From positions 1 through 43,409 of the forward strand of contig CALHGQ010000149.1 in assembly GCA_938030175.1 (NCBI GenBank): a DNA stretch of 43,409 nt, written 5' to 3'. The position numbers and the translations under genes are program-made. Numbering within the stretch: the stretch's first letter is position 1; every line of letters starts with the position of its first letter. The notes below the pieces were generated by a model that made no database searches, was not told the origin of the DNA, and saw only the letters and a list, made by a program, of their open reading frames with translations. This DNA is from an uncultured bacterium (GTDB taxonomy: Bacteria > Planctomycetota > UBA1135 > GCA-002686595). Shown in pieces: positions 43,221 to 43,356 of this stretch.

Positions 43221-43356
43221 ACGACGGCTACTGAGCGGTACGGTACCGTAGTCATTGTCGCCAATCGACAGGGCCCGCAGCAGACCGGAAGGTCTGCTGC
43301 GGGCCCTGTCGATTGGCCACAATGACTGCGGTACCGTACTGCTCAGTAGCTGTCGT
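43221..43356. repeat. 136-nt near-perfect inverted repeat/hairpin, 66-nt arms, 4-nt loop
   Basis: Left arm 43221-43286, loop ggaa 43287-43290, right arm 43291-43356. Non-Watson-Crick positions: 43259/43318 (C/C), 43249/43328 (T/G), 43237/43340 (G/T), 43226/43351 (G/T). Confidence 0.95.

Follow-up and report, generated by a model that had tools for sequence, protein, structure and literature searches.

Most descriptions of REPINs and their RAYT transposases come from Proteobacteria, where the repeats are short and GTAG-tagged. Other palindromic miniature repeats of about 100–170 nt, including Yersinia YPAL, Rickettsia RPE and enterobacterial ERIC/RU, lie between genes or at their ends. Bacterial chromosomes are not normally expected to keep long near-perfect palindromes stably.

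REPINs consist of inverted conserved ends and a less conserved spacer, with a hairpin kept by compensatory changes and a link to RAYTs (Bertels and Rainey 2011, PMC3116915). Among the relatives of RAYTs, the long TIRYTs have inverted repeats at their flanks, a number of them self-complementary, and for REPs both the location at 3′ ends and the supply of a stop codon by the repeat end have been published (Di Nocera et al. 2013, PMC3733652). A 2018 survey of TnpA-Y1 proteins did not find REP-like sequences near subclass 2.1 genes (PMC6006769).

The window analysed here, a stretch of 43,409 nt, carries near its right end a 136-nt hairpin, which we interpret, with a probability of roughly 0.78, as a copy of a non-autonomous REPIN-like (TIRtron-like) palindromic element, mobilised by a RAYT and tolerated at gene 3′ ends. 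An inverted-repeat search places the arms at 43221–43286 and 43291–43356 (66 nt each, 94% complementary, 4 nt apart), and the pairing given in the preliminary description is correct: 62 of the 66 pairs are Watson–Crick, three are G/T and one is C/C, around a GGAA loop. It is the sole close long inverted repeat within the 43-kb window, with a palindrome score of 54, compared with at most 19 in ~0.25 Mb taken from this genome's remaining contigs. Folded as single-stranded DNA, the hairpin is predicted to reach −84.6 kcal/mol against a shuffle mean of −23.7 (z −22), and as minus-strand RNA −129.2 kcal/mol (z −23). The strand asymmetry pointed out earlier, in which the G/T pairs favour the plus-strand RNA, is genuine in the window copy, although its basis is only three pairs. 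The hairpin and its neighbours comprise the following parts:

42005–43111, minus strand: downstream esterase/alpha-beta hydrolase ORF, its start 109 nt from the hairpin
43221–43356, no strand assigned: whole palindrome of the window copy, 66-nt arms (repeat search and folding)
43221–43231, no strand assigned: left extension ACGACGGCTAC, matching the last codons of the neighbouring gene in inverted orientation at 10 of 11 positions
43232–43263, plus strand: left outer arm TGAGCGGTACGGTACCGTAGTCATTGTCGCCA, the conserved family foot (family comparison)
43264–43286, plus strand: left inner stem, copy-specific, 23/23 paired with the right inner stem
43287–43290, plus strand: loop GGAA (sequence and folding)
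43291–43313, minus strand: right inner stem (pairing with the left inner stem)
43314–43345, minus strand: right outer arm, reading TGAGCAGTACGGTACCGCAGTCATTGTGGCCA on the minus strand (family comparison)
43343–43345, minus strand: TGA stop of the upstream gene, made by the element's end (sequence)
43346–43356, minus strand: the gene's last codons ACGACAGCTAC, right part of the extended palindrome (sequence)
43343–43409, minus strand: 3′-terminal part of a gene whose product is a DbpA-type RNA-binding-domain protein with a Gly/Arg/Tyr-rich tail; the rest of the gene is on contig C386 (L005:516–1514)

The element that recurs elsewhere is 43232–43345 (TGAGC...GCTCA). The 11 bp beyond it on either side (ACGAC[G/A]GCTAC) are private to the window copy, the left extension being absent from other complete copies, apart from CTAC, which adjoins TGAGC in two of them (L006 and L012). 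As first described, the upstream minus-strand gene ends within the right arm, with the codons GAC GAC AGC TAC TGA. It had been characterised as Gly/Tyr-rich; the rich tail is indeed present (Gly/Arg/Tyr), and the 332-aa product read from C386 also has a DeaD dimerisation domain and a DbpA RNA-binding domain, which refines the gene to one for a DbpA RNA-binding-domain protein.

The reported lack of a T-tract agrees with our intrinsic-terminator test (G+C-rich stem followed by a T-tract), which returned 0 sites near the hairpin; nor was a sigma-70-like match found there. A known RNA family was considered and dropped: no Rfam family exceeded its gathering threshold (the top match, a eukaryotic miRNA precursor, scored 90.7 bits against 168), and permissive thresholds returned generic hairpin matches only. 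The idea of an antisense RNA is unsupported, as the element is near-symmetric, occurs as DNA copies beside many unrelated genes and changes in both arms together.

The palindromic mobile element (MITE/REP-like), also among the initial suggestions, is strongly supported by dispersed copies, by families in relatives and by RAYT association. BLAST of the 136 nt against the same genome gave 67 matches, many of them both strands of one place, and a second copy used as query located about 45 places. A 26-nt outer-arm pattern, allowing up to 3 mismatches, matched 48 times across the whole genome, versus 0 for the reversed control. Complete copies are hairpins of roughly 100–136 nt with loops of 3–5 nt; half-arms and decayed copies also belong to the family. 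The outer arm is conserved throughout (TGAGCRGTACGGTACCGTAGTCATTGTCGCCA). Read inward, a copy begins with TGAGCR (or TGGCA), commonly after TAG or TAC, and continues with the conserved arm GTACGGTACCGTAGTCATTGTCGCCA, followed by ~20–25 nt of inner stem that is specific to the copy, and a variable loop. Inner stems share 46–50% identity between copies; within copies they pair at 255 of 264 positions (about 97%) in the 13 intact ones; the total for the 17 copies measured is 319 of 369. A copy's departures from the family outer arm frequently occur in both arms, such as GGTTTGATTG/CAATCAAACC in L004 and AAAG/CTTT in L013. The family thus combines two conserved ends in inverted orientation with a spacer that is less conserved and forms a hairpin, and its copies are dispersed and mainly extragenic. 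Its feet read GCRGTACGG rather than the canonical GTAG or GTGG; GTAG is present inside the main family's arm, not at the foot. A joined-flank search for empty sites or polymorphic copies found none, the inspected matches being self or repeats.

Contig C221 of this genome holds a sister subfamily of 86-nt hairpins (L287:3786–3871, 6146–6231 and 12102–12187), whose arms differ identically in each copy (TCTGATTCCGCCA or similar versus TTCGTTTGCGCCA); perfect symmetry is therefore not universal. The copy at C52:6447 (L172) has lost most of its inner stem, and its variant outer arms are still complementary (TAGTAGATGT/ACATCTACTA).

Many copies lie at gene ends. Flanking sequence was sufficient for 48 main-family arms; at 21 of these, a coding-like ORF (at least 80 codons, heuristic gene calls) ends within −15 to +9 nt, compared with 3.4% of random positions (binomial p about 1e-18, if the arms are independent), and the docked ORF ends fall mostly at 0, −2 or −3. 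This is probably an undercount, because Gly-rich genes like that of the window fail the coding filter. By heuristic gene calls, 18 of 34 classifiable elements in two related genomes, G006 and G024, lie between convergent genes, versus 66 of 356 background gaps. A bidirectional effect on 3′ ends is plausible as a consequence of this position. Stop-codon docking shows a way for a mobile element to be incorporated into the ends of genes.

In this genome and G006 (L287 to L290), clusters of hairpins occur amid genes whose products look secreted and have similar NFTDAL-type C-termini.

BLAST with the full-length hairpin gave no match in 40 relatives, and the exact arm pattern occurs in none of 85,488 species genomes or IMG/VR, sets from which records near the window's genome may be excluded. 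The BLAST result had suggested a one-species curiosity, an idea abandoned when palindrome sampling of G006, which belongs to the same genus and is assembled as one contig, exposed a related family. The skeleton GCRGTACSGNACC-N11-CGCCA occurs there 129 times versus 3 in controls and in G044 11 times versus 2; in almost every other genome scanned, its count is close to that of the controls. G006 carries roughly 50 skeleton-related hairpins with a middle sequence of their own and the feet GCGGTACCG; their covariation signal is weaker (0.098 versus 0.073 shuffled), because the arms are nearly identical between copies and the inner stems are partly decayed. A second giant-hairpin family of G006 comprises nested tandem units in about 45 dispersed copies (e.g., L187:17544–17721 and L366:3042–3225). 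G024, from another genus, has a family of about 30 copies with arms up to about 83 bp and the feet GGGCGTACGG, bearing no obvious relation to the window family except GTACGG; its inner stems share 61% identity between copies (best anchoring) and pair at 96% within copies. Further genomes of this taxonomic family accordingly carry giant-hairpin families both related and unrelated to that of the window.

Several of these families adjoin transposase genes. In G006, a RAYT-type Y1 protein gene (67 bits against NCBIfam REP_Tyr_transpos, under the 80-bit cut-off) lies between a family arm, upstream, and a complete hairpin starting at its stop codon. A RAYT on C221 of the window's genome, 54% identical to that of G006, lies about 45 nt past a sister-subfamily hairpin. 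The G024 RAYT has hairpins of the G024 family, with 76- and 77-bp arms, on both sides, and a hairpin of the second G006 family, with 86-bp arms, lies 52 nt from another RAYT of that genome. Long palindromes also stand beside RAYTs in G042, G048 and G067. Such a palindrome is absent at about 23 of the 30 RAYT loci examined; no RAYT flanked by the window's exact subfamily (TGAGCRGTACGGTACCGTAGTCATTGTCGCC) was seen in this genome, which is 82% complete, and its C98 Y1 gene is not flanked by family arms. Ten aligned RAYTs have invariant H60, H62, Y119 and N123, and NP in most, corresponding to the HUH and Y---NP motifs. The proteins are about 350 aa long and have a C-terminal extension with weak helix-turn-helix matches below cut-off; by these two features they appear to resemble TnpA-REP subclass 2.1. 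Because giant-hairpin families flank RAYT genes here and in related genomes, the elements are very probably mobilised by a RAYT-type transposase, and we infer both their transposition and a cognate enzyme for the window's subfamily.

G006 additionally contains near-identical copies of a 233-aa Y1 transposase (L307, L309, L311, L312 and L313), a group distinct from the hairpin-adjacent RAYTs; these have no flanking family arms, with the exception of L311, where a hairpin lies about 370 nt off.

The elements share with the REPIN/RAYT system (PMC3116915) the inverted conserved ends, a hairpin spacer with compensatory changes, dispersed extragenic copies and, for the sister subfamily and the families of G006 and G024, the RAYT link, and in this respect the architecture is already known. 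They differ in near-perfect pairing over the full 100–184 nt, in feet based on GTACSG instead of GTAG, in copy number (about 45 versus hundreds) and in RAYTs that look like the long subclass. TIRtrons/TIRYTs (PMC3733652) are similar in their long Y1 transposases and flanking repeats unrelated to GTAG, some self-complementary and forming moderately abundant genomic families; however, published TIRs mostly carry GGGGWSAS, whereas here a whole giant hairpin, its inner stem specific to the copy, can form each flank. The likeness to subclass 2.1 (PMC6006769) extends to the HUH and Y---NP motifs, a length of about 350 aa, the C-terminal extension and the weak helix-turn-helix, but the survey reported no REPs nearby, and here giant palindromes abut several RAYTs. 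The RAYT association also distinguishes these elements from YPAL, RPE and ERIC/RU, to which they are likened by description, not by sequence. Since they work in a REPIN-like manner but lack the GTAG foot of canonical REPs, we regard them as a new variant, giant-palindrome REPIN-like elements, outside the canonical REPIN family. What is new is the full-length near-perfect palindrome, the GTACSG feet and the long RAYTs of a subclass-2.1-like kind, with RAYT-type transposases adjoining families of near-perfect 80–184-nt palindromes.

The two inverted conserved feet, formed by the outer arms, bracket the copy-specific inner stem in a unit that would fold, as single-stranded DNA, into one long hairpin. 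A RAYT/TnpA-REP-type HUH-Y1 transposase may recognise this hairpin and help its copying to new sites, as the RAYT-flanking hairpins suggest. Copies would persist where harm is small, at gene 3′ ends. There they often coincide with the stop codon itself, and the TGAGC end of the element can provide that codon.

Strong stop-codon docking, the enrichment between convergent genes and the very stable RNA form would also be expected of elements maintained by the host to end transcription or protect mRNA 3′ ends, on both sides between convergent genes, and not primarily mobile. We consider this unlikely: the family is limited to one species and relatives carry other families, hairpins flank transposase genes, no T-tract follows the stem, only about 45 copies are present in a genome of several thousand genes, and half-arms and decayed copies exist. 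The inverted-repeat structure and dispersal would also suit a MITE derived from a conventional DDE transposon whose terminal inverted repeats are long, in which case the RAYT association would be incidental. Such an origin is improbable in view of four RAYT–hairpin adjacencies in three genomes and different families; target-site duplication is not evident at the inspected complete copies, and a longer element with these ends was not seen in a search covering less than the whole genome.

Integron-like attC recombination sites, which end gene cassettes, came into consideration through the gene-sized spacing of some G006 copies, and they likewise form long hairpins directly after stop codons, with conserved ends and a variable middle. 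This reading was dropped as extremely improbable, because the GTTRRRY/RYYYAAC core is absent at the consensus-arm ends; moreover, the stems are continuous and nearly perfect, without extrahelical bases, and the elements are dispersed rather than in one array, among ordinary genes and RAYTs. The preliminary description had further raised an inverted-duplication artefact of the library or assembly, to which the many copies at contig ends might seem to point, but repeats are expected there in a 728-contig draft. C386 is an independent contig that shares 105 nt with the right end of the window at 99% identity, which means that the right arm was assembled twice together with its flank, and equivalent elements sit inside a single-contig genome and a two-contig genome; an artefact is very unlikely.

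On the reading as a REPIN-like mobile element, the likeness of the two arms within a copy might reflect selection for a foldable intermediate, self-templated correction from arm to arm, or both. Outer-arm changes common to both arms are transversions in 15 of 19 cases, whereas 9 of 15 single-arm changes are transitions (Fisher p = 0.03, from a small sample partly non-independent by descent). Transversions cannot pass through a G-U pair, which favours rewriting of the arms. The extension of the palindrome by 11 bp into the neighbour's final codons (10/11 matching, with CTAC possibly the element end) hints at self-templated repair, and template switching is reported to create and maintain hairpins (PMC8794818). 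We therefore offer, tentatively and as a rather doubtful extension, the view that each RAYT lineage drives its own giant-palindrome family, whose arms are actively rewritten from one another, either by self-templated copying or by mismatch repair acting on the folded hairpin. If true, copies would gain new inner stems and stay palindromic, amounting to concerted evolution inside one 100-nt element. Related genomes hold several different families, and one of these genomes has two; together they provide a natural comparative set that could address RAYT target recognition, the persistence of long palindromes, and compensatory change by selection versus self-templated copying.

The window also contains direct repeats of other kinds. 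Three 33-bp tandem repeats CGCTGCTACTTCCCAGACCAGGTTGATCTTGCG at 42907–43015 fall in the N-terminal part of the esterase ORF, low-complexity direct repeats of the TCTTCCTCGG type at 5993–6240 overlap an ORF at 5848–7179, and repeats at 174-nt spacing at 18145–19062 encode FG-GAP repeats in the ORF at 17667–19475.
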